Positions 18,595 to 38,510 of a DNA stretch of 50,049 bases are shown one piece after another. Positions within the stretch are counted from its first letter, which is position 1; the number at the start of each line of letters is the position of its first letter. Source of the stretch: an uncultured Agathobacter sp. (GTDB lineage Bacteria; Bacillota; Clostridia; Lachnospirales; Lachnospiraceae); assembly GCA_944381555.1 (NCBI GenBank), contig CALWLL010000048.1, positions 1 through 50,049 of the forward strand. Direction: 5' to 3'. The position numbers and the translations under genes were made by a program. Below the pieces are notes generated by a model. The model was not told the DNA's origin. It saw only the letters and a program-made list of their open reading frames with translations, and ran no database searches.

Positions 18595-18628
18595 TAGACG
18601 TTGATATATTAAGGTCTTTCCTACAAAG
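18595..18628 (-). repeat. Dispersed intergenic repeat, copy A (diverged)
   Basis: On the minus strand: TAGGAAAGACC, then an AT-rich stretch and CAACGTCTA. It follows the hlyIII terminator, like the other four copies follow terminators. The second half is diverged (TTAATATAT in place of GTGATACAT). Confidence 0.5.
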
Positions 18629-18634
18629 AAAAAA

Positions 18635-18672
18635 GACCCCCGCAAAAAGCGAAATTGCTTTTTGCGGGGGTC
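18635..18672 (-). terminator. Terminator of the hemolysin III-like gene
   Basis: A perfect 16-bp stem (18635-18650 with 18657-18672) rich in GC at the base, 6-nt loop, and TTTTTTC on the minus strand, 12 bp past the stop. Confidence 0.95.
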
Positions 18673-18683
18673 ATATTATTTTC

Positions 18684-19334
18684 CTAAATCACATACATAA
18701 ACATAAACACAAAGTGGCAGATGCTTCCTGCCATGATGAACAAATGAAAAATCTCATGCAGTCCAAAATACTTATGGATATGGTCTAAAAACGGAATCTT
18801 AAGCGCATAAATCACTCCGCCGACCGTATAGAATAAACCGCCAATCAAAAGCCACCAGAAGGCTCCCGGCTCAAGGCTGTCTACAAGCGGTCCAAACACC
18901 AGAACACATTCCCAGCCCATAGCAATATAAATTACGGAAGAAAACCATTTCGGACAAGTTACCCAAAATAACTTAATCAACATTCCTATGATAGCAGTCG
19001 CCCACACGATTATAAGCAGCGGATACCCCACGGAAGGCTCTAAAACCAGTAAGCATACCGGAGTATATGACCCTGCAATCAACACAAAAATCATCATATG
19101 GTCAATCTTTTTAAATACTTTAAGCGCTTTGCCTTTCAGATTCACTGCATGATACAATGCGCTTGCACCATAAAGAAGCACCATACTTCCGATAAAAATT
19201 ATCATCGCAATAATGTATAACATATTCTGTGACAGGCTGGCCTTGATAAGCAGCGGAACTGCCGCCACCATCGCCATCAGCATTCCAATATAATGGGTAA
19301 TTGCACTTCCCGGCTCTCTTATTGTAATCTGCAT
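18684..19334 (-). CDS. trhA: Hemolysin III / TrhA family membrane protein
   Basis: A 216-residue protein with seven membrane helices, a member of the PAQR-like hemolysin III family (YqfA in E. coli, YplQ in Bacillus). The family signatures with metal-ligand candidates are present: SALYH, KIDHMMIFVLIAGSYTP, and HEIFHLFIMAGSICHF near the end. The family has been linked to membrane energetics or lipid homeostasis; hemolysis itself is poorly supported. GGGAGG precedes the ATG. A promoter at 19411-19439 and a palindrome in the leader suggest specific regulation. Confidence 0.93.
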   Translation of the reverse strand: MQITIREPGSAITHYIGMLMAMVAAVPLLIKASLSQNMLYIIAMIIFIGSMVLLYGASALYHAVNLKGKALKVFKKIDHMMIFVLIAGSYTPVCLLVLEPSVGYPLLIIVWATAIIGMLIKLFWVTCPKWFSSVIYIAMGWECVLVFGPLVDSLEPGAFWWLLIGGLFYTVGGVIYALKIPFLDHIHKYFGLHEIFHLFIMAGSICHFVFMFMYVI

Positions 19335-19375
19335 AATACATACCTCCCATACAGATTTTATTCCAAAAATCGCAT

Positions 19376-19398
19376 GATGTAGTTTTCAAAACTACATC
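19376..19398. promoter_or_regulatory. Palindrome in the hlyIII leader
   Basis: Arms GATGTAGTTTT (19376-19386) and AAAACTACATC (19388-19398) flank a single C, giving 11-bp arms. It is just downstream of the predicted start point. A second dyad (19403-19417, ATAGTA/TACTAT) overlaps the -10. A dimeric repressor site is more likely than a terminator, because no T tract follows. Confidence 0.55.
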
Positions 19399-19410
19399 TA
19401 AGATAGTATT

Positions 19411-19439
19411 ATACTATATCTTATCTTTTATACTGTCAA
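19411..19439 (-). promoter_or_regulatory. Promoter of the hemolysin III-like gene
   Basis: Minus-strand TTGACA (19434-19439), 17 bp, TAGTAT (19411-19416). The AT-rich dyad at 19403-19417 overlaps it. Confidence 0.65.
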
Positions 19440-19488
19440 GTAGAGAAAAACCGATTTCATAATTTGTTAATATTTTCCAACACATATT

Positions 19489-20322
19489 TTACATAAATAG
19501 CAGCAGACTTACCGCCATAACCATCATTCCTGCTACCAGACCGTAGATAGACAGATGATGTTCTCCATATTCTCTTGCTGCCGGAAGAAGTTCGTCAACT
19601 GAGATAAATACCATGATTCCCGCCACTGCCGCAAAAATAATCCCGTACACAAAATCACTCATAACCGGAAGCAGCACTAACCAGCCAATCAATGCTCCGA
19701 CCGGTTCTGCCAGTCCTGACAAAAATGAGTATAAGAATGCTGTTTTTCTTGAGCCTGTTGCCTGATATATCGGAACGGATACCGCAATCCCCTCGGGGAT
19801 ATTATGTATCGCAATCGCCGCAACGATTGGTATGGCAACACCCGGCCCCTGAAATGCCGATACAAAGGTTGCCATTCCTTCCGGAAAATTATGTATTGCA
19901 ATGGCAAGCGCCGTAAAAACTCCCATGCGCATAAGCTGTGTATTTTGATTTTTCTTCTCCTTTACACACGCCTCACACTCGCCGCAACTCTCACAATCCG
20001 CCAGTACATTTCTTGGCTCATGCGGATTTTCCGCAGATGGGATAAGCTTATCAATCAGCGCAATCAGAAATATTCCTCCGAAAAACGCTATTACCGTCAT
20101 CCATGCGCCATGTTTTTCTCCCAAGTCTGCCGCAAGAGCCTCATTCGCCTTGTTAAAAATCTCTATCAGCGATACATATATCATAACTCCCGCCGAAAAA
20201 CCAAGACTTAAAGACAAAAAACTCTTATTGGTTTTCTTCGCAAAAAAAGCAATCACACTTCCGATGCCTGTACTTAAACCCGCTAATAAAGTCAGCATAA
20301 AAGCAAACATAATGTTCTCCAT
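19489..20322 (-). CDS. zupT: Zinc/divalent metal transporter, ZIP family
   Basis: A 277-residue ZIP-family importer with about eight helices that takes up zinc and other divalent metals. The two signature helices are HNFPEGMATFVSAF and HNIPEGIAVSVPIY, which contain the His/Glu metal site. It is about 20 residues longer than E. coli ZupT (257). Part of the extra length is a cytosolic loop around residues 109-120 with CESCGECEAC, a CxxCxxCxxC array that may bind metal. The start MENIMFAF follows GGGAGG. Its promoter region carries a perfect palindrome, so metal-controlled repression is a good guess. Confidence 0.93.
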   Translation of the reverse strand: MENIMFAFMLTLLAGLSTGIGSVIAFFAKKTNKSFLSLSLGFSAGVMIYVSLIEIFNKANEALAADLGEKHGAWMTVIAFFGGIFLIALIDKLIPSAENPHEPRNVLADCESCGECEACVKEKKNQNTQLMRMGVFTALAIAIHNFPEGMATFVSAFQGPGVAIPIVAAIAIHNIPEGIAVSVPIYQATGSRKTAFLYSFLSGLAEPVGALIGWLVLLPVMSDFVYGIIFAAVAGIMVFISVDELLPAAREYGEHHLSIYGLVAGMMVMAVSLLLFM

Positions 20323-20403
20323 ATTCCTAATAACCTCCCTTTTCTAGAATATGCCTTTTTTACTCAAAGGAAGCTTATCCAGTCTATTTGCACATAAGCC
20401 GCT

Positions 20404-20432
20404 TCGAGTTAGCTAAAGCTAACTCGATTATA
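20404..20432 (-). promoter_or_regulatory. zupT -10 box with overlapping palindrome
   Basis: TATAAT on the minus strand (20427-20432) runs directly into TCGAGTTAGC-TTTA-GCTAACTCGA (20404-20427), a perfect 10-bp dyad at the predicted start point. GTTAGC/GCTAAC half-sites resemble those of DtxR-type boxes, though the spacing differs. The -35 (near GTGCTA) is weak. Confidence 0.55.
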
Positions 20433-20448
20433 ACACAGCTTTTTCTAT

Positions 20449-20634
20449 TTAGCACTCTTCAATTGCATCTACCGGACAACTATGGGCTGCTTCTTTTGCG
20501 CTTTCCATCTGTTCTGCCGGAACATCATTCCCTGCTGCAACTGCTGTACCTGCATCTGACATTGTAAACACTTCCGGACAAATGCTTGAGCATAAGCCAC
20601 AACCAATACAGTTCTCATTTACAAAATATCTCAT
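20449..20634 (-). CDS. Single-cluster [4Fe-4S] ferredoxin
   Basis: A 61-residue low-potential electron carrier. The start MRYFVNENCIGCGLC (20634) follows AAGGGAGAG; a longer frame to 20718 includes repeat and leader sequence. Ligands are in CIGCGLCSSICP and the distant CPVDAI, giving one 4Fe-4S cluster as in Thermotoga or Clostridium one-cluster ferredoxins. It lies between the chemoreceptor terminator plus repeat copy B on one side and zupT on the other. Its redox partners cannot be told from the context. Confidence 0.9.
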   Translation of the reverse strand: MRYFVNENCIGCGLCSSICPEVFTMSDAGTAVAAGNDVPAEQMESAKEAAHSCPVDAIEEC

Positions 20635-20749
20635 GAATTTTCTCTCCCTTCTCATCTTTTTCATTATTGTCTGCCACATTTGGATAAATATACATCCTGT
20701 ATTTAATGATACGAACAAAGTGTGCGCATCCTTCGCGGAGCGTTTTTCA

Positions 20750-20807
20750 TATCATAGGAAAGTAAATTTCTTTCACACGTTAATGTATCACGGTCTTTCC
20801 TATAAAG
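20750..20807 (-). repeat. Dispersed intergenic repeat, copy B (hairpin form)
   Basis: Minus strand: TATAGGAAAGACCGTGATAC, then ATTAACGTGTGAAAG, and finally ACTTTCCTATGATA, which is complementary to the start of the element. It lies just after the terminator at 20810-20847. Confidence 0.65.
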
Positions 20808-20809
20808 TA

Positions 20810-20847
20810 AAAAAGTGCTGTTGCAGCTCTCCTGCGCAGCACTTTTT
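20810..20847 (-). terminator. Terminator of chemoreceptor 2
   Basis: An 11-bp stem AAAAAGTGCTG (20810-20820) with CAGCACTTTTT (20837-20847) and a smaller inner GCAG/CTGC pairing, 17 bp past the stop. Confidence 0.9.
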
Positions 20848-20864
20848 ATTCTTTCCTCCACTGA

Positions 20865-22589
20865 CTAGTGAAGTTTAAATCTATTAACCTCTGAATCAAG
20901 TCCGTTTGCAATATTGAGGTTCGAATTTGCTTCTGCTTCAATATCATCTACACTTGTCGTAATATTAACGGTAGCTTCTGAAACACTTGTAATGCCTTTT
21001 GCACTTTCTTCAATAGCAATATTCACAGATGCAACGGATTCCTTAATAGAGTCTACATTTGTCTTTAATGTATCACTCGATGCGGCAAACTCATTCATCA
21101 TGCTATTCATATTGCCTACATCATTCTGGTAATTACGGCTGGTTTCCAGCAGTTTATCGTAACCGGTCATTGCTGTTTCATCCATGAACTTAAGCATCTT
21201 CCCAGATACGCTTGCCAAATCATTTACCGCATCAATAACCTGCGCGCTCACCACCTGAATCTGAGCCGCTGCTGCGGCAGAGTTTGTAGCAAGTTTTCCG
21301 ATTTCATCCGCTACTACCGCAAAGCCTCTGCCGGCTTCCCCTGCTCTTGCCGCCTCAATGGATGCGTTGAGAGACAGAAGGTTTGTCTGGCTTGTAATAC
21401 TGATAATATTATCCGTAAGCTCGCTGATTGTTTCAACTGCTTTTGATTTCTGTATCTTTTCATTCACAGATGCTGCAAGTTCATCCGCAAGGCGTTTTGC
21501 TTCTTCCTGCTCCGCAATAGCATTCTGGTGAACGGCCGCCGCTTTATTCATAATATCATCTGAGGATATACGGCCATTTTCAGCACGTTCATTAATTATA
21601 TCAATCTCTTCTACCATATCAACGATTGCATCATTGATTTCCGTAAGAGCCGCACTCGTTTCTTCCATACCTGCGCTCATCTCTTCCATAGTTGCCGATA
21701 CGTCTGTAATACTTACCTGCGTTGCAGAAAGGCTGGAAACAACCAATTTTGAAGAACTGTTAAGCTGTGTAGAGTTGCCCGCGATATTGATCATAATTCC
21801 GCGAATATAATCTAACAGGGCATTTACGTTATTTCCAATCAGCTCTAATTCATCACCGGAATGAATATCCAGTTTCTGTGTTAAATCACCCTCGTTATTC
21901 ACAAGATCGTAAATCTTAGCATTAACACCATTTAACCCCTTCATGATATTCTGAACCGTAATAAACAATGTTAATAAACCAACAACAAATCCGATTGCAG
22001 AAAGAGCTACTGTCTTAGTCAGAGTATCTGTAAGCTCATACATAATATCCGTTGCATCATAGTCGCAGCCTAATACAGCGACAACCTCACCTGTAATACC
22101 TGTAATTGGAGCATATACGGTAATTAAAGATTCTCCGTCTGAAGTATCAATTTCCGGTTCCACATATACCTGACCTTCAAATACCATTTTCAGGTCTTCG
22201 TAATTGTATTGAAATTCCTCACCAATTGCGTAGCATTCCTCGGTCTGATCTGCATCAATACCATAATATACCTTCTCCCCATCTGTATATAAGGTATACA
22301 TATATTTGATGCCGCTATGCTCCTGCATAGTAATCATCATGTCCTTTTGTTCTAAGTAATTAGCCGTATATTCATCCCCCAGTTTTATTCCGGCAATTTT
22401 TGTTCCGTCCAGTGTCACTACGGTTATCTGAGCAACGCTTTGCGCCTGCTTTCTGCCCATGAGCGTCATTTCCTCCTGAACTGTACCATAGGCGAAAAGA
22501 CTAAGCAGAGAACAAATAATTAAAAAAATTGCTCCAACCGGAATGAGTAATTTCAGCCGGATACTAATCTTACGTACCTTTTGTTTCAT
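20865..22589 (-). CDS. Methyl-accepting chemotaxis protein with extracellular Cache-like sensor
   Basis: A 574-residue chemoreceptor. The start at 22589 (MKQKVRKIS) follows GAGGTG; an upstream in-frame codon at 22619 lacks a site. A first membrane helix is at about residues 14-36. An external sensor of some 150 residues follows ([20 protein letters not shown], then [25 protein letters not shown]), which looks like a single Cache domain. The second helix is at about 195-217, then HAMP and the signalling tip with [32 protein letters not shown]. Cache domains usually bind small metabolites. It lies 33 bp downstream of a HAD phosphatase and ends at a strong terminator. Confidence 0.94.
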
Positions 22590-22622
22590 AATAGTCACCT
22601 CTTCTTCTTGTAAAACCATAAA

Positions 22623-23426
22623 TTATTTTATCAAATTATCACAATATTTACAACACCATTCAACGAATTCCGGCACAATATAATCTGCTTTTTCTGCCAT
22701 ATCGTTCTGTGGGGAAATATTAGACTTCACATAATAAGTGGAAAAGCCTGCCGTCTGTGCACCTTTGATATCGGTATGGGAATCATTCCCGATAAACAGG
22801 GTTTCTTCCGGATTTATTGCATATTTTTCTATCAGAATATCAAAAAACCTTTTGTCCGGTTTCCTTGTTTTATAATCAGAGGAAATCAGTATTCCGTCAA
22901 AGTACTTTGCAATATCCAGTACATGCATTTCATATTCTGTAAAGATGCGCTGCGCGTTAGACAAAAGATAGACCTCTTTTCCTGCGGCCTTCAATGCCTC
23001 CAGCATCTTATGCGTGCCTTTATAAACACGCACATATTCTGTAGTAAGCACGCGGAAAAACTGTCCGGTATGTACTGCCAGAACATAGTCAGCGTCTACG
23101 CCTTTTGCAGCATAAAGCTCCCGGAACACATCCGTAATTTCGATTTCCGGCGACGCCTCATGCGCATATTTTGGATCATTTTCCAATGTGGATTTTAGAC
23201 TTCTCTCCTTATCTTTTACCAGACGCTCATACGCCTCCTTTAATTCCTGCGGTTTGTAATGCGCCTTATAATACCCATAGAAAAGGCTCAGCTTTTCCCA
23301 TACGCCCATATCATTTTCATCTGTGTGGATATCCACGAGTGTGCCATACAAATCAAATACATAGACCTTATAGCCGAGCGGCAGCCTCGCCTCCTGTCTC
23401 TTTATGCTTGTCCGGTAAAGTTTCAT
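22623..23426 (-). CDS. HAD-superfamily hydrolase (YjjG-like)
   Basis: A 267-residue phosphatase-like protein. The start at 23426 (MKLYRTS) follows AGAGGA; an ATG at 23468 has no site. HAD motif I is VFDLYGTLVD, with the nucleophile and acid aspartates separated by one residue plus a Tyr insertion as in some YjjG-like enzymes. Motif II is LLSNAQ, motif III the lysine in TRKPDKRFF, and motif IV IGNDSHTDIKGA. Nucleotides or sugar phosphates are usual substrates. It follows sigF by about 60 bp without a visible terminator and precedes the second chemoreceptor. Confidence 0.9.
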   Translation of the reverse strand: MKLYRTSIKRQEARLPLGYKVYVFDLYGTLVDIHTDENDMGVWEKLSLFYGYYKAHYKPQELKEAYERLVKDKERSLKSTLENDPKYAHEASPEIEITDVFRELYAAKGVDADYVLAVHTGQFFRVLTTEYVRVYKGTHKMLEALKAAGKEVYLLSNAQRIFTEYEMHVLDIAKYFDGILISSDYKTRKPDKRFFDILIEKYAINPEETLFIGNDSHTDIKGAQTAGFSTYYVKSNISPQNDMAEKADYIVPEFVEWCCKYCDNLIK

Positions 23427-23488
23427 ACTGTTATATTCCTCTTTTGCAAATTTGTAGTTGAAATACATTATAATAATTATACACCTAT

Positions 23489-24235
23489 TTAGAATTGTTG
23501 TCTCAAAAATAATAATATTTTTTTCTCTAACCGGGACACTGCCACCTGATTCATTCCAAGTTCTTTAGCACTTTCTGATTGTGTCTTTCCTTCCAGATAC
23601 CTTAATTCTATCAGTCTGCGTTCCCTCGTTTTTAAAGTTTCCAGCATCTGCAGCACCGTAATCCGGTTAATCAAATCCGTCTCTCCTGTATAACTGTCCT
23701 CTAGCTGGTCTGCTAAAACCAACTGACTGCCATCCGACTGTCTTCCCACCGGCTGATAGATGGATTCCACCTCCGTAGTTGCCTCCATTGCAATCAAAAT
23801 CTCGTCTATAGACAAACCTGTGGCTTCCACAAGTTCCTCTATCGTAGGGTCATGGTTTTTCGTTTTCTTTAACTCCTCTTTTACCATAGCAATTCGTCTG
23901 GCATTATCCTTCACATGACGGCTGACATGTATCATTCCATCATCGCGTATAAATCTTCGTATCTCGCCGATGATCATCGGAACTGCATATGTGGAAAAGG
24001 AAAACTCTCTTGTTACATCAAATTTATCAATCGCTTTCATCAGGCCGATAACCCCAATCTGAAACAAATCCTCCTGCTCATAGCCACGATTTGCAAAGCG
24101 TTTCAGTACCATATATACCAGACCTGTATTGGCAGTTACTAATTGATCCCTTTCTTCTTTATCCCCATTTTGTGCTTTCTGAATGGAAAGCTTCCAATTT
24201 TCCTCCTTGGTGGACACACTACCTGTCACCATCAT
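23489..24235 (-). CDS. sigF: RNA polymerase sigma-F, forespore-specific
   Basis: A 248-residue sigma-70 family factor lacking region 1, typical of SigF. Region 2 includes LVYMVLKRFANRGYEQEDLFQIGVIGLMKAIDKFD and FSFSTYAVPMIIGEIRRFIRDDG. Region 3 is PTIEELVEATGLSIDEI. Region 4 is LKTRERRLIELRYLEGKTQSESAKELGMNQVAVSRLEKK. Identity is fixed by its place after spoIIAA and spoIIAB; it overlaps spoIIAB by 17 bp. In the forespore it is held by the anti-sigma SpoIIAB until SpoIIAA releases it. The exact start (24235 or the next ATG codon) is uncertain. Confidence 0.96.
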   Translation of the reverse strand: MMVTGSVSTKEENWKLSIQKAQNGDKEERDQLVTANTGLVYMVLKRFANRGYEQEDLFQIGVIGLMKAIDKFDVTREFSFSTYAVPMIIGEIRRFIRDDGMIHVSRHVKDNARRIAMVKEELKKTKNHDPTIEELVEATGLSIDEILIAMEATTEVESIYQPVGRQSDGSQLVLADQLEDSYTGETDLINRITVLQMLETLKTRERRLIELRYLEGKTQSESAKELGMNQVAVSRLEKKILLFLRQQF

Positions 24236-24662
24236 CCCTCGCTATGTATTTTGTCATTGTTATGCTGGTTCCTTCCCCCACCTGGGATGTAATATCGATT
24301 TCATCCATAAATGCCTCCATAAAAGCAAATCCCATGCCCGAACGGTCCTGCTCGGGCTTGGTGGTGTAAAAGGGCTGTCTGGCCTCCTCCACATTTTCAA
24401 TCCCAACTCCATGATCTGTGACCGTTACCGTAAGTTTTTGTCCTTCACGGATACAAGACATTTCCACCTGCCTGCTCTCATCATCATATCCATGAATAAT
24501 GGCATTGGTAACGGCTTCGGAAACAGCCGTTTTTACATCTTCCATCTCATCTATGGTGGGGTTCATATCTGCCATAAATGCCATAACCGTCATGCGTGCA
24601 AATGCCTCATTTACTGATTTTGCATCAAAAGTAAGATGCATCGTATTTGTTATTTTTTCCAT
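24219..24662 (-). CDS. spoIIAB: Anti-sigma-F factor / protein kinase SpoIIAB
   Basis: A 147-residue GHKL-fold serine kinase and anti-sigma factor. The ATP site shows the N box EAVTNAIIHG, the G1 box DHGVGIENV and the G2 box SGMGFAFMEAFMD. It binds SigF and phosphorylates SpoIIAA. It lies 21 bp after spoIIAA and overlaps sigF, the standard spoIIA order. The length matches Bacillus SpoIIAB (146). Confidence 0.97.
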   Translation of the reverse strand: MEKITNTMHLTFDAKSVNEAFARMTVMAFMADMNPTIDEMEDVKTAVSEAVTNAIIHGYDDESRQVEMSCIREGQKLTVTVTDHGVGIENVEEARQPFYTTKPEQDRSGMGFAFMEAFMDEIDITSQVGEGTSITMTKYIARDDGDR

Positions 24663-24683
24663 CTTCGCTTCCTTCCTTTTCTC

Positions 24684-24998
24684 CTATTTTACCTGAATGA
24701 TTTTATACAATCCTGCTGACTTAAAAATCGTATCCACCCGTTTTCCCAGATTTACTGCCGCTATGCTGCCTCCATGAAAATGCATCGTTTTACTTCTGCC
24801 TATCACTATTCCTATTCCCGAGCTGTCCATAAATTCCGTCTGGGAAAAATCCAAAACCAGCTCTTTGATGCGATAGGATTCTACCAACATATCTATTTCC
24901 TGGCACATATCCTTTGCAACGTGATGGTCCACCTCCTTTGGCATCTCATAAACCAGTTGCGTGCCATCTACTTTGTACCGTCTTGCTATTCTTTCCAT
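24684..24998 (-). CDS. spoIIAA: Anti-sigma-F factor antagonist SpoIIAA
   Basis: A 104-residue STAS-domain protein that frees SigF from SpoIIAB when unphosphorylated. The phosphorylation loop FMDSSGIGIVIGR (Ser59/Ser60) matches the Bacillus MDSSGLG site. The start MERIARR at 24998 follows AGGAGG; the frame extends upstream to 25040 without support. It is the first gene of the spoIIA operon. Repeat copy C and the TPR-gene terminator lie upstream. A clear sigma-H promoter was not found. Confidence 0.96.
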   Translation of the reverse strand: MERIARRYKVDGTQLVYEMPKEVDHHVAKDMCQEIDMLVESYRIKELVLDFSQTEFMDSSGIGIVIGRSKTMHFHGGSIAAVNLGKRVDTIFKSAGLYKIIQVK

Positions 24999-25042
24999 AT
25001 TTCCTCCTTTTTCTGCCGATAACAATATTCTTTTATCCATCC

Positions 25043-25075
25043 TTCACACTAATGTATCACGGGCTTTCCTATGAT
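25043..25075 (-). repeat. Dispersed intergenic repeat, copy C
   Basis: Minus strand: ATCATAGGAAAGCCCGTGAT followed by ACATTAGTGTGAA. One substitution in the core (GCCCG for GACCG). It lies between the TPR-gene terminator (25088-25114) and spoIIAA. Confidence 0.6.
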
Positions 25076-25087
25076 GCCCCAAAAAAT

Positions 25088-25114
25088 AAGACGCAGGATA
25101 TTATCTTGCGTCTT
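25088..25114 (-). terminator. Terminator of the TPR-protein gene
   Basis: Stem AAGACGCA (25088-25095) with TGCGTCTT (25107-25114), continued through one mismatch into GATA/TATC, followed on the minus strand by TATTTTTT. It is 15 bp past the stop. Confidence 0.85.
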
Positions 25115-25128
25115 TTGTAAATACGATA

Positions 25129-26508
25129 TTAAGTTTCTCCGTTTACATGCTTTTTCGCAGTATTTGCGCGTTCTGTATCTGGATAGTGGTCAATCACATA
25201 CTGATAATACTGTTTTGCAGATTCTGCATCCCCGCCCTTGCGGTAGGACTGGGCTAAATAATATGCAGCATATCCTTCTTCAAAATCAATATTATAGTCC
25301 ACGACTATCTGTAATTTTGCCACAGCATCTGCATAGTTCCCATCCCTGTAGCTTGTATATCCGGTTGTATAAAGGCTGCTGTAATATTCGCCGGAAACCT
25401 CTGTCCATAAGGTATTGTACATCGTTTTCGCACTATCCGTAAGCTGGTTCACATCAACCTGGCTTAAATTGGTTCCTGCTAAAATATAATCCTGACCGGC
25501 ATAGGCGACAAATGCACTCAGCAGCATATCGTAAGCCTCAAGCTGTTCCGGGAGGGTTTCATTCCCTTTTTCCATTTCCTCAATTGTAGCCGCCAGCTCC
25601 GCTTCCAGTTCTGCGATTTTCTCTTCTAATGCTGCCACCGTCTGTTCTTTGGCAGAAAGCGCATCATTAACTTCCACCAGCTTCTGATTTGATTCTTCCC
25701 TTGCCCGCTTTTGTACCTCCGGCACTACAAGAAATCCTATAATTGCGGCGCCGATAAGAAGACCTATCAGAAGATATGCTAATGTAAAGCCAAGAGAAGA
25801 TTCCTGAAAACGCTTCGGCATAATAATCATTTCATTGCCGCTTTGATAAGAGATCAAATCTTCGTCCTTTTTCTTTTTGCCGCTGCCGTTTTCCTTTAAC
25901 CGATTATTTACTTCCTTGAGATAACGAAGTGTAATCGTATTATTTGCATCAATTTTTCCTGCGCTGCGAAGGCACTTTTTTGCCAGATCCAGTTTATTTT
26001 CCTGCATATATAAAAGCGCCAGAAGCTGATGTCCTTTTACCATTTTCGGATTTAAAGAAAGTACCTTTTTTAACTGGATAATTGCCAGATCCCTGCTGTC
26101 CTGCCGACAATACAAGAGCGCCTGATTATACTTTTTAATGGTCTGGTTATTTGCCTCAAGCTGTGCGCGGTTCTTGCGTATCTCATCTAAATATCTGCCT
26201 GCGATATTATCCTCTTCCTGATAGCTCTTACTGATTACCCATTCACTAAGAGCGTCAACCGTCTCTCCCATTTCATAATATACAAGACCAAGCAGATTTC
26301 TTGCATCAATATTATTTTTATTAAATTTTAAACTTTTTTTCAGACTGATTATTGCACCGGACAGGTTACGGACTTCTGCCTTCTGTAATCCGTCATTGTA
26401 ATACATATTAGAAAGACGTATTACTTTCTGGAAAATAGAAATGTCAGTTCCGCACACCGGGCATATGTTTTCTCTTCCTGCCTCGTGATTACATTTGTAG
26501 CAAATCAT
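25129..26508 (-). CDS. Membrane protein with zinc ribbon, TPR repeats and coiled coil
   Basis: A 459-residue protein of unknown role. An N-terminal zinc ribbon (CYKCNHEA and CPVCGTD, residues 3-20) is followed by TPR-like helical repeats (about 35-200). A basic linker (KKKK) and one membrane helix (about 239-262) come next, then a coiled coil (about 268-315, EEKIAELEAELAATIEEME) and a second set of TPR-like repeats to the end (YYLAQSYRKGGDAESAKQYYQYVIDHYPD). This predicts a cytosolic zinc ribbon/TPR half and an external TPR half. It follows a 50-residue gene by 13 bp with a GAGGTGAGG site. A scaffold linking cytosol and envelope is a fair guess. Confidence 0.88.
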   Translation of the reverse strand: MICYKCNHEAGRENICPVCGTDISIFQKVIRLSNMYYNDGLQKAEVRNLSGAIISLKKSLKFNKNNIDARNLLGLVYYEMGETVDALSEWVISKSYQEEDNIAGRYLDEIRKNRAQLEANNQTIKKYNQALLYCRQDSRDLAIIQLKKVLSLNPKMVKGHQLLALLYMQENKLDLAKKCLRSAGKIDANNTITLRYLKEVNNRLKENGSGKKKKDEDLISYQSGNEMIIMPKRFQESSLGFTLAYLLIGLLIGAAIIGFLVVPEVQKRAREESNQKLVEVNDALSAKEQTVAALEEKIAELEAELAATIEEMEKGNETLPEQLEAYDMLLSAFVAYAGQDYILAGTNLSQVDVNQLTDSAKTMYNTLWTEVSGEYYSSLYTTGYTSYRDGNYADAVAKLQIVVDYNIDFEEGYAAYYLAQSYRKGGDAESAKQYYQYVIDHYPDTERANTAKKHVNGET

Positions 26509-26521
26509 GTATGCCTCACCT

Positions 26522-26674: not shown

Positions 26675-26738
26675 TTCTTTTCCTCCAATGAACGCCAACA
26701 GGCTGTCCCATATAAAAAGCCACTAGATTATGTACTTA

Positions 26739-28301: not shown

Positions 28302-28319
28302 TGATTGTAACATTATCTC

Positions 28320-30965: not shown

Positions 30966-30984
30966 TATTTTCCTCCTCATTTTT

Positions 30985-31020
30985 TCACACGTTAATGTAT
31001 CACGGTCTTTCCTATGATAT
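30985..31020 (-). repeat. Dispersed intergenic repeat, copy D (canonical)
   Basis: Minus strand: ATATCATAGGAAAGACCGTG followed by ATACATTAACGTGTGA. It sits between the T-box terminator and the valS ribosome site, with only 20 nt to the ATG. The 3' complementary arm seen in copies B and E is missing. Confidence 0.65.
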
Positions 31021-31053
31021 AAAAAAACCCTTCTGTGCATAAGCACAGAAGGG
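31021..31053 (-). terminator. T-box terminator hairpin upstream of valS
   Basis: CCCTTCTGTGC-TTAT-GCACAGAAGGG followed by seven T on the minus strand. An 11-bp perfect stem. Its 5' arm follows the T-box motif, as expected for the alternative antiterminator fold. Confidence 0.95.
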
Positions 31054-31290: not shown

Positions 31291-31296
31291 ACTTGT

Positions 31297-31325
31297 ATCT
31301 TACTTTTAGAAAATGCATTTGTCAA
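31297..31325 (-). promoter_or_regulatory. Promoter of the valS T-box transcript
   Basis: Minus-strand TTGACA (31320-31325), 17 bp, TAAGAT (31297-31302). The predicted start near 31290 opens Stem I of the T-box. The -35 lies just beyond the stop of the gtrA gene. Confidence 0.8.
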
Positions 31326-31333
31326 GATAATTC

Positions 31334-31753: not shown

Positions 31754-31764
31754 ACTTTTATCCG

Positions 31765-31908
31765 TTACTCTTCTTCTAACAGTAAATCCTCATCATCATT
31801 GATACCGCCCATAGCCGACGAAACCGTTGCCGATACTACGATTACTACAATGATACAAATAAATATGATAAATGCGAAGAAAAGAAATAAGAACATTTCA
31901 TCTGACAT
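31765..31908 (-). CDS. 47-residue single-pass membrane peptide
   Basis: A short frame with an AGGAGAGGGTATT site before its ATG (31908). The protein starts MSDEMFLFLFFAF, has one hydrophobic helix (residues about 5-32) and an acidic tail (GGINDDEDLLLEEE). It stops 11 bp before the gtrA start, so the two are likely co-translated. It could be an accessory subunit of GtrA. No family is recognised. Confidence 0.65.
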   Translation of the reverse strand: MSDEMFLFLFFAFIIFICIIVVIVVSATVSSAMGGINDDEDLLLEEE

Positions 31909-32004
31909 AATACCCTCTCCTATCGTCTGCTCACTTTCGTGTTCTTGCGCTCATTATAGCATACCCTAAATTAAGGTGCAATATCAGAAAATCCGTCTTA
32001 AAAT

Positions 32005-32808
32005 TCAATCCGCCACCTGCATTCCGGTCACATCCATATGATAGTTGTCACGCATAATCAGTTCGGAAATCGGTATGATTTCATATCCTTGATTCTTGAG
32101 ATTGGTAAGCATCTCATCTAAGGCCTGTGCCGTATACTTTGCGCCATTGTGGCAAAGGATGATAGAACCCGGGCCTAAGGAATCATGATTGCATACGTTA
32201 GAAATAATACGTTCCGGCGGATAATCCTTCCAGTCAAGGGAATCTACATCCCACTGAATCGGATAATAGTTTAATTCATAACAAATCCGGATTACATCAT
32301 TATTATACGCTCCGTACGGGGGCCGGAATAATTCCATTTCATATCCTGTCAACTCTTTCACTGCATTATGGACTTTTAGAATCTGTTCCTTTTGCTTTTC
32401 TTTGGAAATCGTTGTCATATCCGGGTGCGTAGCGCTGTGATTGCCCAAATCATGACCTTTTTCCACCAGGGTTTTCACACATTCCGGATACTTTTCCACC
32501 CATTCTCCTGTCATAAAGAATGTCGTCTTCACTTCATGTTTATCTAATACTTCCATGATCTGTTCAAAGTCCTCTGCTCCCCATGCAGCATCAAAGCTTA
32601 TGGCAATTTTCTTTTCCTCAATGCCAACAGAATAAATTGGCAGTTCACGATCTCCATATGTGCTGCTTACTTCAACCGCGATGTTAGCCAAACGTCCAAT
32701 CAGCAAAGCACATACCAAAATACATGCCAACTGGCTTCCGATAATCATTTCCCGATGAGACTCTTTTATGATTTTTCCAATCTGTTTTAAAATCTTTTGA
32801 ACTTGCAT
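32005..32808 (-). CDS. pdaB: Membrane-anchored polysaccharide deacetylase, PdaB type
   Basis: A 267-residue carbohydrate esterase 4 (NodB) protein. An N-terminal anchor lies at about residues 21-42. The usual TFDDG motif is SFDAAWG (Asp73), as in the sporulation protein PdaB. The metal histidines are His124 and His128 in GNHSATHPD. RPPYG (162-166), QWDVDSLDW and ILCHNGAKYTAQALDEML complete the catalytic set. PdaB-type proteins help maintain spore cortex, in line with the spoIIA genes nearby. The start has no strong ribosome site. It lies 77 bp after mtnN. Confidence 0.88.
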   Translation of the reverse strand: MQVQKILKQIGKIIKESHREMIIGSQLACILVCALLIGRLANIAVEVSSTYGDRELPIYSVGIEEKKIAISFDAAWGAEDFEQIMEVLDKHEVKTTFFMTGEWVEKYPECVKTLVEKGHDLGNHSATHPDMTTISKEKQKEQILKVHNAVKELTGYEMELFRPPYGAYNNDVIRICYELNYYPIQWDVDSLDWKDYPPERIISNVCNHDSLGPGSIILCHNGAKYTAQALDEMLTNLKNQGYEIIPISELIMRDNYHMDVTGMQVAD

Positions 32809-32885
32809 ATACTGTACCGATATTTTTATAGTTTTCTTATTCCAATCTTATTCCATACAGCATATCCAATATACCTGGTTCTCTT

Positions 32886-33578
32886 TTATACTTCCTGTAT
32901 TCTTGCAATAAACTCCAGTACAATTTCAATGGAGCGAAGCGCTGCCTGTTCCGCAAAGGTCTGATAATCAAGTGCCCCTCCATCACCGTCGGAGATTGCA
33001 CGGAGCACCGCAAACGGGACATTATTTACGGTACACACATGTCCGATGCTGCCGCCTTCCATTTCACAGGCAACTGCACGGAAACGCTCTCGAATCAAGG
33101 CTTTGTGCTCCGGGTCATGCATAAAAACATCTCCTGTTGCAATCGGACCGGACACATAGTGTATCCCTTTGTCTTTCAGGCAATCGCACAATACCCTGCA
33201 CATTTTCTCATCTGCCGGAAAATAAATCTGATTTACCCCGGAAATAAGACCAACCGGGTCTCCGATTGCCGATGTATCCATATCATGCTGAAGGACGTCA
33301 CTTGCAACGGCCACATCCAAGACGCCCAAATCTTTTGTCAATGTTCCTGCCACTCCGATATTGATAATCATATCGGGATTGAATTTTAAAATCATTGCCT
33401 CTGCGCAGATAGCAGCAAAAACTTTTCCAACGCCGCATACTGCTGCTACCACGTCCATTTCACCAATCGTTCCGCTGACAAAACGTATCCCGCTGACGGT
33501 TACTGTGGACTGGTTCTCCATCGCTTCCTTTAAGTTGTCTACTTCCATCTGCATTGCGCCGATAATACCAATCTTCAT
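32886..33578 (-). CDS. mtnN: 5'-methylthioadenosine/S-adenosylhomocysteine nucleosidase
   Basis: A 230-residue enzyme that removes adenine from S-adenosylhomocysteine or methylthioadenosine. The start MKIGIIGAMQMEVD at 33578 follows GGAGG; an in-frame GTG at 33590 lies inside that site and is unlikely. NIGVAGTLTKDLGVLDVAVAS, the catalytic ACEMEGGSIGHVC and RAISDGDGG are diagnostic. It sits 42 bp after luxS, so the two consecutive steps of S-adenosylhomocysteine recycling are encoded together. Confidence 0.96.
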   Translation of the reverse strand: MKIGIIGAMQMEVDNLKEAMENQSTVTVSGIRFVSGTIGEMDVVAAVCGVGKVFAAICAEAMILKFNPDMIINIGVAGTLTKDLGVLDVAVASDVLQHDMDTSAIGDPVGLISGVNQIYFPADEKMCRVLCDCLKDKGIHYVSGPIATGDVFMHDPEHKALIRERFRAVACEMEGGSIGHVCTVNNVPFAVLRAISDGDGGALDYQTFAEQAALRSIEIVLEFIARIQEV

Positions 33579-33620
33579 ATATTCCTCCACCTTTGTCCTT
33601 TGGATAGATTCTTTCCCGTT

Positions 33621-34079
33621 TTATTCCGGATAAGTAAATTCCAGATTTGTCTGGCTGTTTAGGACTTCCAGATACTTTTTTGCCTCCTCTTTTGCAAGAG
33701 ACAGCGACAGGTTTTGATAGTTGCCGCATTCTATGGCAGATGCGCCAAACACAGGACCTTCATACGCAAGAATCTGCTCCAAAATCATCTTGGTCAGTGC
33801 AAATACTTCTGACGGCGCTAAATCCTTTACCAGAAAATAAAATCCGGTCTGACATCCCATTGGTCCAAAATAGATAATTTTATCCCGCACTTGCGAATTT
33901 CGGGCATATGTTGCAAACATATGCTCGAGGGAATGCATGGCTGCATTGTCCATATAATCACCTGCATTCGGTTTTCGCGTACGCAGATCGTAAGTGATGA
34001 CATTATCATCTTCACGGGAAATATAAAATCCCGGTTCTAAAATATTATGGTTAATCTGGAAACTCTTAATACGCTCCAT
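33621..34079 (-). CDS. luxS: S-ribosylhomocysteine lyase (AI-2 synthesis)
   Basis: A 152-residue metalloenzyme that splits S-ribosylhomocysteine to homocysteine and DPD, the precursor of autoinducer 2. Metal ligands are His49 and His53 in HSLEH and Cys118 in IECGNY. The catalytic Glu52 and Cys76 (GPMGCQTGFY) are intact. The gene has a GGGAGGATAAC site. It is placed between pepF and mtnN. Confidence 0.97.
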   Translation of the reverse strand: MERIKSFQINHNILEPGFYISREDDNVITYDLRTRKPNAGDYMDNAAMHSLEHMFATYARNSQVRDKIIYFGPMGCQTGFYFLVKDLAPSEVFALTKMILEQILAYEGPVFGASAIECGNYQNLSLSLAKEEAKKYLEVLNSQTNLEFTYPE

Positions 34080-34110
34080 GTTATCCTCCCGAATGAAAAC
34101 TGTATTGCTA

Positions 34111-35913
34111 TTATTTTACAAGTCCTTCAAGCATCTCTAAATAGCTTTCAAATACTACGAGTGCATCATCCACCGGTTCCGGTGTACTCATATCTACTCC
34201 TGCTGCTTTTAGTAAGTCAATCGGATCTTTGGAAGAGCCGCCGCTTAAGAAATTTTCAATATAGCGGTCAACCGCCGGTTTGCCCTCTTCTAAGATTTTC
34301 TTGGAAAATGCAATTGCAGCAGAATAGCCTGTCGCATACTGATATACATAGAAAGAAGTGTAAAAATGAGGGATGCGCATCCACTCATAATCAATTTCTT
34401 CATCTACAATCATATCCGGTCCATAGTACAAGACATTTAAGTCATGATATATTTTACAGATATCCTCCTTCGTCAGACTTTCACCATCTGCAATTCTCTT
34501 ATGCACAATCATCTCAAATTCCGCAAACATTGTCTGGCGGAATACGGTACCCCGGAAACTTTCTAACTGGTGGTTTATCAGATACCTGCGCTCTACTTCA
34601 TCGGATGTATTTTCTAACAGATAATGCATCAGCAGCGCTTCATTACAGGTAGACGCCACTTCCGCAACAAAAATTAAATATCCCGCATAAGTAATCGGCT
34701 GGTTCTTATCCGAATAATAGCTGTGCATTGCATGCCCCATTTCATGTGCCAATGTAAATACACTGTCTAAGTTATCCTGATGATTTAACAGCACATATGG
34801 ATGTGTGCCATACGCGCCCCATGAATATGCCCCGCTTCGCTTATTTTCATTTTCATATACGTCAACCCAGTCATGGTCCATACCCTCGGATGCCACTGCC
34901 ACATAATCCTCTCCCATCGGGGAAATGGCAGCCTTTACCATTTCCTTTGCTTCATCATAAGGATATTTCTTACCGGTCTCTTCTACTACAGGCACATACA
35001 AGTCATACATATGAAGACGTTCTACGCCCAACAGCTTCTTACGCAGGGACACATAACGGTGCATTGCCGGAAGGTGCTTATGTACGGTTTCAATCAAATT
35101 GTCGTACACGCTTTCGGGAATATTCCCATTATGCAAATGCATCGCACGGACACTTGGGAAATTCCGTACCTTAGCATAGAAATTCTCCTGCTTTAGCTGT
35201 GCCTGGAACATTGCGGCAACGGAGTTGGCATGCTTTTTATATTCTCCATATAACCCGCAGAACACTTCCTTACGCAGACTTCTGTCTTTGCTTTCAATGA
35301 GAGAAATATAATTTCCATGTGTAATCTGAATCCGGTTTCCCTCTACATCTGTTACTGACGGGAACTTAAGGTCCGCATTGTTAAACATTGAAAAAATATT
35401 AGACGGAGCCATTGCCATATCTCTTGCCAATGCAAGAATCTCTTCCACCTCGCCGGAACGCGTATGCTCCTTGTCGCGAAGAATCTGCTCCACCATTCTG
35501 CGGTAATGCTCTAAGCCTGGTTCTTCCTTAAAAAAGTTCTCTAAGAGAGCCTCATCCATCCCCAGAATTTCCGGCTGCATAAATGAGGTTGCGCTGGAAA
35601 TTGCTACCGAGATACTGTCCGCTTTTGCGGAATATCCCTGATATTTGGACACCGCTGTATCCTCATGATATTTCTGACCCGCATATACAATAACACGTTC
35701 TGCATGGTAACTCATTTCATCTATCTTCCTAAAGAACTCTAATAATATTGCCGGGCCTTCGCTTAATCTGCCTTTGTACTGTTCCATTTCTTTTGCTAAA
35801 TCCAGAAGCTTTTGTGCCTCTTCTTCCCACAATTCATCTGTAGCAAACATATCCTGCATATTCCATTTGTACTGCTTTGGTATCTCGCTGCGACTGCGAA
35901 GTTCTTTTCCCAT
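34111..35913 (-). CDS. pepF: Oligoendopeptidase F, M3 family
   Basis: A 600-residue cytoplasmic zinc peptidase that trims short peptides. The zinc site is HEMGH at residues 390-394 (TLAHEMGHAMHSYY), with the third ligand Glu in the following helix region (FVAEVASTCNEALL). The N-terminal PepF domain (RSEIPKQYKWNMQDMF) is complete and the length is normal. AAAGGAGATT precedes the ATG. It is the first gene of pepF-luxS-mtnN(-pdaB), with 31 bp to luxS. Confidence 0.96.
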   Translation of the reverse strand: MGKELRSRSEIPKQYKWNMQDMFATDELWEEEAQKLLDLAKEMEQYKGRLSEGPAILLEFFRKIDEMSYHAERVIVYAGQKYHEDTAVSKYQGYSAKADSISVAISSATSFMQPEILGMDEALLENFFKEEPGLEHYRRMVEQILRDKEHTRSGEVEEILALARDMAMAPSNIFSMFNNADLKFPSVTDVEGNRIQITHGNYISLIESKDRSLRKEVFCGLYGEYKKHANSVAAMFQAQLKQENFYAKVRNFPSVRAMHLHNGNIPESVYDNLIETVHKHLPAMHRYVSLRKKLLGVERLHMYDLYVPVVEETGKKYPYDEAKEMVKAAISPMGEDYVAVASEGMDHDWVDVYENENKRSGAYSWGAYGTHPYVLLNHQDNLDSVFTLAHEMGHAMHSYYSDKNQPITYAGYLIFVAEVASTCNEALLMHYLLENTSDEVERRYLINHQLESFRGTVFRQTMFAEFEMIVHKRIADGESLTKEDICKIYHDLNVLYYGPDMIVDEEIDYEWMRIPHFYTSFYVYQYATGYSAAIAFSKKILEEGKPAVDRYIENFLSGGSSKDPIDLLKAAGVDMSTPEPVDDALVVFESYLEMLEGLVK

Positions 35914-36006
35914 AATCTTAATCTCCTTTATCTATTCCTACTTCCTGCATTCTCTGTTTTCAAAAAGCAGAGAGAATCGCATACTGACTATATTTTAACA
36001 CAGAAA

Positions 36007-36027
36007 AAAGGGGGTTGCACCCCCTTT
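36007..36027 (-). terminator. Terminator of the second gtrA gene
   Basis: AAAGGGGG (36007-36014) and CCCCCTTT (36020-36027) with loop TTGCA, and a TTTTTT run on the minus strand. It is 15 bp past the gtrA stop. Confidence 0.9.
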
Positions 36028-36041
36028 ATAAAAAAAGACTA

Positions 36042-36431
36042 TTATTCTAAAAATGCTTTCTTTGAAATGAAGTTATAACCTGTTACCATACCTGCCGCAA
36101 ACACTTTGGCTACCGTGTAATAGATATTTAAAACATCTACTAACACCCACATTGCCATCTGGTTGAAGCCTAGTCCAATAAGACTTAAGACTAAAAATAC
36201 AGACACTTCCTTTGCCCTGCTCATATCCTCTCTTCCGCGAAAAACATAGCGCATGCTAAGAACATAATTCACAAGAATCGAAATAGTATAGGAAAATGCA
36301 CAAGCTCTGAAATATCCCATATGAGTTGATTCCGTGAAAAGAACCATAAAACCATAGTCAACTGCAAGGCTAATCATTCCAACTGAAGCAAATCTACAAA
36401 ATTGAAGCACCAATGCTATATTTTTCAACAT
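36042..36431 (-). CDS. GtrA-family membrane protein (second copy)
   Basis: A 129-residue protein with four membrane helices and the GtrA arrangement (FCRFASVGMISLAVDYGFMVLF, NYVLSMRYVFRGR, YNFISKKAFLE). The ATG at 36431 follows GCAGGAG; an upstream in-frame TTG at 36452 is less likely. It shares only family-level likeness with the copy at 31.3 kb. It is close to UDP-galactopyranose mutase, so a role in galactofuranose or surface-polymer glycosylation is possible but not shown. Confidence 0.88.
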   Translation of the reverse strand: MLKNIALVLQFCRFASVGMISLAVDYGFMVLFTESTHMGYFRACAFSYTISILVNYVLSMRYVFRGREDMSRAKEVSVFLVLSLIGLGFNQMAMWVLVDVLNIYYTVAKVFAAGMVTGYNFISKKAFLE

Positions 36432-36571
36432 AAATGAACTCCTGCTTTTCAACTTCTTTTAGAAACGGATTTATTATAATCCTCTGTTTTACAAATAACA
36501 ATTTATAAACTTCCCAAATAAAATTGAAATAAACAGAAGTTTTTCGTAAATTTTACCAAATCTTTACCTTT

Positions 36572-37174
36572 TTAGTACCGCAGCATCTCTTCCAAAGCCT
36601 GTCTGCCCTGCCTGTAATCCTTAAAATGTACCGCCAGAATGCCGCTTCGCATTGCACCTTCCACATTTTCATAACGGTCATCCACAAAAACACATTCCGA
36701 ACAGTTGAGGCTGTACTTCTGGCAAAGAAACTCATAGATCCTGCTGTCCGGCTTCAAAAGCCTGCACTCATACGAAAAGACTGCACCATCTGTCAATGAT
36801 AGAAACTCTAACTTTTCCCTTGTCTGGTTCATCATATTCTCGGAATAGTTCGAAAGAATATACAATTTGTAGCCTTTTTCTTTCAGTTCCTTTAACCACT
36901 CCATAGCATAAGGATACATCTTAATGGTTTTCCCTACGGTAGCGTGAATATGGCGGATCTCTGCTTCATATTCCGGTGCTCCGGCAATAAATTTTCCCAG
37001 AAATTCTTCCGGTGTGAAAAGCCCCTGATCAGACATATCCCACAGCTTATTTTCAAACACCGCACGGTTGATGGCGGCACGAGCCCCTTCATCTAAACCA
37101 ATGCTTTTCATATATTCGTCCGGTTCATAGGACACTAAAACTTTACCCACGTCAAAAATGATATTCTTTATCAT
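36572..37174 (-). CDS. HAD-superfamily hydrolase, YihX-like
   Basis: A 200-residue HAD phosphatase. Motif I is IIFDVGKVLVSY (FDxGxV form, typical of YihX/epoxide-hydrolase-N-like members), motif II LYILSNYS, motif III the lysine in RLLKPDSRIYEFL, and motif IV FVDDRYENVEGA. YihX in E. coli acts on glucose-1-phosphate, but substrate here is not known. The AAGGAG upstream is 17 nt from the ATG, further than usual; an in-frame ATT lies 5 nt from it and might be used. Confidence 0.88.
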   Translation of the reverse strand: MIKNIIFDVGKVLVSYEPDEYMKSIGLDEGARAAINRAVFENKLWDMSDQGLFTPEEFLGKFIAGAPEYEAEIRHIHATVGKTIKMYPYAMEWLKELKEKGYKLYILSNYSENMMNQTREKLEFLSLTDGAVFSYECRLLKPDSRIYEFLCQKYSLNCSECVFVDDRYENVEGAMRSGILAVHFKDYRQGRQALEEMLRY

Positions 37175-37219
37175 AATATGTAAAATCGTTGCTCCTTTTA
37201 TTAATCTGCACTACAAATC

Positions 37220-37297
37220 CTAATATCCATCAGTTCCCGCAGTTTTGGATTTTCCTGAGCCTGTTTCTCCCGTGATTCCGATGCGTGTTGCTTGCAT
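37220..37297 (-). other. Short frame with an orphan P-loop, possible gene remnant
   Basis: Between glf and the HAD gene the minus strand encodes 25 residues that begin MQATRIGITGETGSGKSK and then hit a stop. GITGETGSGKS is a full Walker A consensus, as in N-termini of RecN- or dephospho-CoA-kinase-like proteins. The rest of any ATPase is missing. It has no good ribosome site, and a second frame of 34 codons overlaps it. Chance or a decayed fragment are both possible. Confidence 0.25.
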
Positions 37298-37312
37298 TGT
37301 ATCATTCTTACT

Positions 37313-38431
37313 CTAAGCCAGCTCTTTCTCAGCCATATCAAGCGCACTGGCAATTACCGCATCCATGTCATAATATTTGTATTCTCCAAGACGTCCGCCA
37401 AATATAATATTTGCTTCTTTTTCCGCCAGTTTTTTATACTCTGCATAAAGTGCGCCGTTTTTTTCATCATTTACCGGATAATATGGTTCATCGCCTGCCT
37501 TCCATTCCGAACTGTATTCACGGCTTATCACTGTCTTCGGAAGGTCATTCCCGTCTGCATCTTTTCCAAACTCAAACCATTTATGCTCAATAATACGTGT
37601 CCAAGGCGTTTCCCTGTCCGTATAGTTTACAGCCGCATTGCCTTGGAAATTAGGCTTGTCCAGCACCTCCGTTTCAAAACGTACAGAACGGTACTCCAAA
37701 GTTCCGAGTTTATAACCGAAGTATGCGTCAATCGCACCTGTATATACCACTTTGTCTGCCAACGCATCGAGTTCTTCTTTCTTTTCCAGATAATCAACAC
37801 CCAATCTTACTTCAACGCCGTCTAAGAGCTTTGCCACCATCTTAGTATATCCGCCTACAGGTATTCCCTGATATAGAGCATTAAAATAATTGTTATCAAA
37901 CGTAAAGCGGACCGGAAGACGTTTGATAATAAAAGCCGGAAGCTCATTGCATGGTCTTCCCCACTGCTTCTGCGTATAACCCTTTACCAGTTTTTCATAA
38001 ATATCCGTACCCACAAGGCTGATTGCCTGTTCTTCTAAATTCTTCGGCTCTGTAATGCCTGAAGCCGCCTTCTGCTCTTCTATTTTTGCAGCAGCCTCTT
38101 CCGGTGTTACTACTCCCCACATCTTATTAAAGGTATACATATTAAACGGGAGAGAATACAGTTCTCCATGATAGTTTGCTACCGGTGAATTTGTAAAACG
38201 GTTAAACTCCGCAAAACGAGTGATATAATCCCAAACCGTTTTGTTGTTCGTATGAAAAATGTGCGCCCCGTAAACATGTACGTTTATGCCTTCCATTTCT
38301 TCCGTATAAACATTTCCTCCAATATTCGGCCGTTTGTCAATCACAAGAACCTTTTTCCCCTGTTCTACGGCTCTTTGTGCAAAAACCGCACCATATAAGC
38401 CTGCCCCAACTATTAAATAATCGTATTTCAT
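37313..38431 (-). CDS. glf: UDP-galactopyranose mutase
   Basis: A 372-residue FAD enzyme that converts UDP-galactopyranose to UDP-galactofuranose, the donor for galactofuranose in surface glycans. The N-terminal dinucleotide motif is VGAGLYGAVFAQRAVEQGKKVLVIDKR. Also typical are NVHVYGAHIFHTNNKTVWDYI, GYTQKQWGRP, and EYSSEWKAGDEPYYPVND near the end. The start at 38431 follows TTGGAGGCAAAC; an in-frame TTG at 38443 is unlikely. Repeat copy E lies just upstream. Confidence 0.96.
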   Translation of the reverse strand: MKYDYLIVGAGLYGAVFAQRAVEQGKKVLVIDKRPNIGGNVYTEEMEGINVHVYGAHIFHTNNKTVWDYITRFAEFNRFTNSPVANYHGELYSLPFNMYTFNKMWGVVTPEEAAAKIEEQKAASGITEPKNLEEQAISLVGTDIYEKLVKGYTQKQWGRPCNELPAFIIKRLPVRFTFDNNYFNALYQGIPVGGYTKMVAKLLDGVEVRLGVDYLEKKEELDALADKVVYTGAIDAYFGYKLGTLEYRSVRFETEVLDKPNFQGNAAVNYTDRETPWTRIIEHKWFEFGKDADGNDLPKTVISREYSSEWKAGDEPYYPVNDEKNGALYAEYKKLAEKEANIIFGGRLGEYKYYDMDAVIASALDMAEKELA

Positions 38432-38453
38432 GTTTGCCTCCAATTAATTTTTC

Positions 38454-38510
38454 TATCATAGGAAAGCTGCTCTCTTTCAACCTTAATGCATCACGGTCTT
38501 TCCTGTGATA
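38454..38510 (-). repeat. Dispersed intergenic repeat, copy E (hairpin form)
   Basis: Minus strand: TATCACAGGAAAGACCGTGA, then TGCATTAAGGTTGAAAG and CTTTCCTATGATA, which pairs with the beginning (13 bp, one mismatch). It lies between the htrA terminator and glf. Confidence 0.65.

Follow-up and report, generated by a model that had tools for sequence, protein, structure and literature searches.

Intergenic repeats of an uncultured Agathobacter as worn copies of a gene-less, hairpin-rich element that probably moves and spreads by recognising terminators

The five intergenic repeats in a 50,049-nucleotide stretch of DNA from an uncultured Agathobacter sp. (contig CALWLL010000048.1 of assembly GCA_944381555.1; hereafter the window) are understood as worn copies of a mobile element, about 160 nucleotides (nt) long, without genes and rich in hairpins, that is present in many copies in gut Lachnospiraceae, nearly always right behind the terminator of a gene, and probably spreads by recognising intrinsic terminators. 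The reading builds on the anatomy and placement of the element, its covarying helices, its near-identical copies, its presence and absence at one shared site and its tandem copies, all of which are observed. That the element is mobile and targeted to terminators is, in our judgement, very likely. On the best reading it is non-autonomous and inserts on the 3' side of intrinsic terminators, possibly in the form of single-stranded DNA. The literature searched, mostly open-access, yielded no description of it.

Anatomy of the element and its copies in the source genome

Side-by-side reading of copies gives the order of parts as the T-run of the host terminator, hairpin A, an A-run, a mini-hairpin, palindrome B and the terminator-like hairpin C. 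Hairpin A (TATCATAGGAAAG ... CTTTCCTATGATA) has a long or a short loop, the long one being replaced by 3-8 nt in many relatives, and its 3' side ends in the A-run that pairs with the T-run. The mini-hairpin between A-run and palindrome B carries a UCC loop; palindrome B (GGATGCGCAnCTCGCGG ... CCGCTCGnGCGCG) has a bulged A, a UC/UC loop and a small inner hairpin; hairpin C ends in TTTGTT or similar.

Covariation is evident among the copies. The free N:N' pair, followed in 141 copies chosen by a fixed pattern in which only this position can vary, is G-C in 69, C-G in 54, T-A in 9, A-T in 3, G-T in 4 and unpaired in 2, which amounts to standard pairing in 139 of 141 with the four G-T pairs included. 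The same ten pairs were recovered by RNAalifold; across 42 sequences 97.9% of cells pair, three pairs are changed on both sides, and the covariation of 0.127 (0.038 in shuffles) was reached in none of 500 shuffles. The inner hairpin of palindrome B is present in 113 of 116 sequences (43 forms), hairpin C in 92 of 116 (46 forms) and the mini-hairpin, which has several stem types and mostly the UCC loop, in 81 of 116 compared with 7 of 116 shuffled ones. Counted against controls, the terminator-like hairpin C is found in 88 of 114 copies and 20 of 600 controls. The 5' arm of hairpin A starts within the T-run, pairing T-run with A-run, in 83 of 114 copies; this count is used in place of the longest stem in the hairpin A region (median 18 base pairs, compared with 8 in random windows), which was taken as the longest within 130 nt and includes some host terminators. 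Fold z-scores are -6.6 as DNA and -7.1 as RNA. Longer forms, in which a larger branched structure takes the place of hairpin C, occur at seven loci (L176, L205, L222, L285, L144, L146 and L147), at L222 as copies in tandem. At L258 and L262 the complementarity of the 3' arm of hairpin A extends into the stem of the host terminator, which gives the impression of a flank copied in reverse.

The core TAGGAAAGACCGTGATACAT, which is the start of the full element, has five matches in the window at no more than three mismatches (chance mean 0.01). They form one repeat family at the positions given by a first-pass annotation of the window, and each copy lies on the minus strand directly behind a hairpin with T-run, as that annotation had claimed and as reading by eye confirms. 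The reverse-complement arm that it described in copies B and E is present in both as an inverted repeat. The copies and their host terminators are as follows, with the basis of each assignment in brackets.

18590..18628, minus strand: copy A, degenerate, 5' part of hairpin A only (sequence, core match, repeat family)
18629..18672, minus strand: host terminator of copy A, hairpin GACCCCCGC...GCGGGGGTC with T-run (sequence; inverted repeat)
20712..20807, minus strand: copy B, hairpin A in full with A-run and mini-hairpin, then the start of module B fused to the end of hairpin C (sequence, copies read side by side, BLAST)
20809..20846, minus strand: host terminator of copy B (sequence; terminator scan, L030)
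25043..25077, minus strand: copy C, 5' part of hairpin A only (core match, sequence)
25081..25114, minus strand: host terminator of copy C (sequence; terminator scan, L038)
30985..31020, minus strand: copy D, 5' part of hairpin A, within the valS leader (core match, sequence, relatives)
31021..31053, minus strand: host terminator of copy D, the terminator stem of the valS T-box leader (sequence; terminator scan, L031; same site in relatives)
38448..38510, minus strand: copy E, hairpin A in full up to its A-run, without modules B and C (core match, repeat family, sequence, BLAST)
38511..38548, minus strand: host terminator of copy E (sequence; terminator scan, L016)

All five are truncated or internally deleted forms of the full element: copies A, C and D retain part of hairpin A, copy E retains hairpin A, and copy B, which extends to 20712, has an internal deletion between the start of module B and the end of hairpin C. 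Copy B sits before a ferredoxin-like gene, copy E before a glf-like gene, and copy D between the T-box terminator and the start codon of valS.

The source genome (2.31 Mb in 66 contigs, 97.79% complete) holds 45 matches to the core compared with one for the reversed pattern used as control, so that the repeat has the further copies on which the first-pass annotation had staked its claim. With the full element as query, BLAST returns 66 pieces at E≤1, of which many are close to full length, and a covariance model of palindrome B, termed R1, finds 24 matches, eight of which share the top score. Eight contigs end inside a copy (C10, C13, C23, C25, C27, C30, C40 and C45), as expected of near-identical repeats. 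Many copies are worn down to the first 30-60 nt. Copies also stand in tandem, hairpin A of one following directly behind hairpin C of the copy before it, and here the element's own hairpin C takes the place of the host terminator. Of the four natures that the first-pass annotation had offered, a decayed mobile repeat is the best fit; its "RNA element" was half right, in that the structure covaries.

Placement behind terminators and spread in the family

A hairpin-plus-T-run scan of the source-genome loci finds a terminator with T-run at near-constant distance before the core in 40 of 44 copies, compared with 104 of 1500 random positions in the same loci; the set of 44 is without the copy at 18604, which follows a terminator by eye. 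The proposed link to terminators is thereby borne out, while its "always" holds for the five window copies and very nearly, if not to the letter, for the genome, with 40 of 44 distinct core matches. The exceptions are L022 and L044, which have a T-run without a good hairpin, L058, which lies behind a degenerate copy, and L060, where the match falls within an open reading frame (ORF) of 350 amino acids. In other genomes of the family, a terminator precedes 100 of 113 copies and is missing before 13, compared with 82 of 600 random windows. The placement is not a matter of T-runs alone, since a hairpin accompanies 11 of 13 T-runs at the element and only 27 of 101 other intergenic T-runs. T-box and tRNA terminators are among the sites, besides ordinary ones. 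At L036 a full-length copy with hairpin C separates a T-box-like terminator from the gene that this terminator should control; by contrast with L036, the window copy at valS and the copy at L054 are trimmed.

Relative to genes, counted for 44 of the 45 core matches with that at 38486 left out, the upstream gene is co-directional in 39 of the 43 copies that have an upstream ORF, and of the 39 with a downstream ORF, 32 are followed by a gene on the same strand and seven by one on the opposite strand. The same-strand gene in 32 of 39 is what a promoter of an unusual sigma factor would show, with GATACATT as its -10, as the first-pass annotation had suggested. That motif, however, lies in the apical loop of hairpin A, a long loop missing from short-loop relatives; moreover, seven of 39 copies face a convergent gene and the distance from copy to next ORF varies widely. 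With its motif in a loop that short-loop relatives lack and convergent genes in 7/39, the promoter is rejected as extremely improbable.

Between copy A and the presumed gntR lies, at 18522-18578, a perfect 23-base-pair inverted repeat (AAACTGTATTACTCATATAATAC) that looks like a candidate operator of the regulator called gntR.

Searches beyond the source genome suggest Lachnospiraceae as the family of the element. BLAST with the genome's own element detects related copies in 21 of 60 genomes, every one of them from the same genus, and none in 24 genomes from other families of the order. An exact pattern for palindrome B occurs in at least 115 stretches in named genomes, and the 80 records listed carry the names Lachnospiraceae, Butyrivibrio, Roseburia, Eubacterium, Blautia, Catonella, Hungatella, Lachnospira, Candidatus Merdisoma or broader clostridial names; an exact pattern of the source-genome type had no match in a collection of genome contigs, and the palindrome B pattern had none in viral contigs. 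Among the matches listed, to which R1 counts refer, R1 matches 61 of 200 genera of the family; R1 searches over 40 genomes used stricter filters. In a class-wide sample it matches three of 196 genomes. Two of these, the source genome included, belong to the family; the third is from another family and has its match in GC-rich sequence without hairpin A or T-run. This single match outside the family looks like chance.

The terminator of the valS T-box offers one shared site for comparison. By eye, the element or a remnant of it is present in seven of 27 readable loci (of 30) and absent from 20, the occupied sites being those of the source genome, G068, G018, G006, G066, G070 and G076, and the hairpins A found there differ between lineages. 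The comparison bears on a reading in which the repeat acts in cis as an RNA or helps termination, possibly by blocking transcription from both directions, and in which selection maintains it at the ends of transcripts while it is copied about only occasionally. Covarying helices, a terminator hairpin of its own and the co-directional gene upstream of 39/43 copies would suit such a function, against which stand the decay of many copies to their first 30-60 nt, the mixture of sites, with T-box, tRNA and ordinary terminators, and the valS site that is empty in most genomes. We consider it quite unlikely.

A possible route of movement and the search for a mobiliser

For a mobile element that is targeted to terminators, the following route can be proposed. 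The element would insert in one orientation, directly 3' of the T-run of an intrinsic terminator, and would move as folded single-stranded DNA, with cutting and joining performed by an HUH-type (IS200/IS605-like) transposase supplied in trans. Pairing with the A-run that immediately precedes palindrome B would identify the target T-run, with hairpin A forming the loop between target and guide. Little harm would be expected, because the element lands behind a terminator and ends in its own, and later erosion of copies, starting at the 3' side or through internal deletions, would give forms like those of the window. Taken whole, that is, as an element of about 160 nt without genes that inserts in one orientation 3' of terminator T-runs by means of an HUH transposase in trans, the account is nearly an even proposition; the single-stranded HUH route in itself is credible, if somewhat less probable than its contrary.

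The account draws on a likeness to the IS200/IS605 insertion sequences (IS) and their gene-less, PATE-like derivatives. Insertion is one-way and 3' of a fixed target, seen here in the terminator T-run before 40/44 and 100/113 copies; hairpins lie near both ends; and T-run and A-run occupy the places of cleavage site and guide. The pairing of the A-run 5' of palindrome B with the T-run in 83/114 copies also extends hairpin A and could be structural. Two left-end classes of IS200 in these bacteria use the terminator target: among 46 IS loci, class I stands behind terminators in 9/9 and class II in 7/8 (16/17 together, compared with 32 of 400 random positions), as opposed to 0/6, 1/10 and 2/5 for classes III, IV and V (3/21). 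In class II, a T-run and then an A-run precede a GC-rich hairpin (by eye), and four IS200-like copies in genome G034 (L328-L331) stand behind terminators, one of them exactly between the terminator and a hairpin A. Differences are set against this likeness: the palindromes of the element are unlike those of the IS200 copies read, and the Y1 transposase was not found in the source genome or in most of the element-rich genomes searched again.

Several results weigh against the proposed account. Y1_Tnp (PF01797) has no match in the source genome at E≤0.01. Y1 does not co-occur with the element, being present in 23 of the 61 genera that bear it and in 46 of the remaining 139, and in nine of 20 genomes with at least seven element matches. 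Among 866 ORFs near the element, no transposase was recognised in clusters common to at least three loci, as judged by eye from just the first residues. The valS comparison offered no exact empty site, its nearest relatives being about 79% identical. In an arm-swap test of hairpin A, a copy-specific match was clear in one of five genomes (JALEPA, 13.1 vs 10.9; the others 11.2/11.2, 12.0/11.3, 8.3/8.2 and 8.8/9.0). Lastly, the IS200 left-end classes were drawn up after seeing the sequences, and of the nine loci in class I four belong to a single genome. The 46 IS loci include eight without a class, among them L153, which is behind a terminator by eye. The class test used a stricter terminator criterion than an earlier loose one, which gave 27 of 39 IS loci and 244 of 400 random windows and did not discriminate.

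A renewed search for Y1 gave no match in ten of 13 genomes including that of the source; the 13 had been chosen as looking Y1-negative (ten others with the source genome, G031 and G018) and are not a random sample. A Y1 transposase as the present mobiliser in most genomes is rejected, given the source genome without match and the lack of co-occurrence. In the pieces read, the element does not flank long Y1 genes, apart from one hairpin A copy in L168, and no parent element with the same ends was found. Nor was a target duplication seen by eye in copies read side by side. At L358, CRISPR-like direct repeats (CCCCGAGAGGGGACGGAAAC) lie upstream of a Y1 gene, beside an IS-like gene.

Movement might alternatively need no dedicated transposase, if hairpins and T-runs promoted template switching in replication and copies arose by slippage and recombination. 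The close match of T-run and A-run, the copy-by-copy match of the two hairpin A arms in one genome and the lack of a linked gene fit such an origin. Near-identical full-length copies on many contigs, together with the conservation of palindrome B across the family, point instead to a dedicated recogniser and make template switching highly unlikely.

Returning to a mobile element with a recogniser of its own, we advance a broader and decidedly tentative proposal: a family-wide class of gene-less mobile elements, moved by an enzyme not yet recognised, may find terminators by structure (stem and T-run) rather than by sequence, with its own A-run as guide to the T-run and its own terminator making each copy both a safe insertion and a new target.

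Relation to known elements and significance

Insertion directly behind intrinsic terminators is already known from group IIC introns (PMC7161350), and the element shares it (40/44, 100/113). It differs from them in being far shorter, without a reverse transcriptase gene and without an Rfam group II match. In the window no Rfam family reaches its gathering score, and over ten element-bearing loci no match at E≤10 could be placed on the element; the group II ribozyme core is without match over these loci, and no linked reverse transcriptase was recognised among the 866 ORFs. A group II intron fragment is rejected for want of an Rfam group II match over the ten loci. The parallel could still reflect a retro-element with terminators as its targets, in the manner of group IIC introns, its RNA ending at hairpin C and being copied into DNA behind another terminator by a reverse transcriptase in trans. 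Target and orientation agree with what PMC7161350 describes for group IIC introns, the terminator-like 3' hairpin (88/114) would be a natural RNA 3' end, and the source genome has one reverse transcriptase (RVT_1) gene. RVT_1 is, however, without match in the element-bearing G018, G030 and G031, two of which are incomplete genomes, so that reverse transcriptase is not consistent either; a GTGYG-type 5' end was not seen by eye, and the lack of a group II match counts here as well. A retro-element is judged unlikely.

Among the short repeats, REP/BIME are high-copy intergenic imperfect palindromes with a bulge that are thought to be moved in trans (PMC8266576). The element resembles them as a high-copy, intergenic, bulged palindrome and differs as a larger multi-hairpin unit, located behind terminators, in a source genome without Y1. 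The conserved GTAG that precedes the 20-50 nt palindrome of REP/BIME was not found before palindrome B in the two alignments read, and a TnpA-REP gene is not indicated, PF01797 having no match in the source genome at E≤0.01. BOX, RUP, SPRITE and ERIC/RU, as presented in the available parts of PMC3049150 and PMC2759123, are likewise short, gene-less and interspersed; they belong to other taxa, and terminator targeting is not mentioned in those parts. IS1272 of the IS1182 family targets inverted repeats as structures, according to PMC5678879, and shares with the element an inverted-repeat structure as target. It replaces the target repeat, whereas at the element the host terminator hairpin stays intact upstream. 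We regard the element as a gene-less interspersed repeat with a terminator target and without a recognised mobiliser.

Terminators are a structural target common to thousands of genes. The question raised is which enzyme recognises a hairpin together with a T-run, and the terminator target shared by two IS200 left-end classes in these bacteria is a starting point for it. If a short element does find terminators, it would have a safe-harbour strategy, with effects on 3' ends and T-box leaders throughout a major family of gut bacteria.

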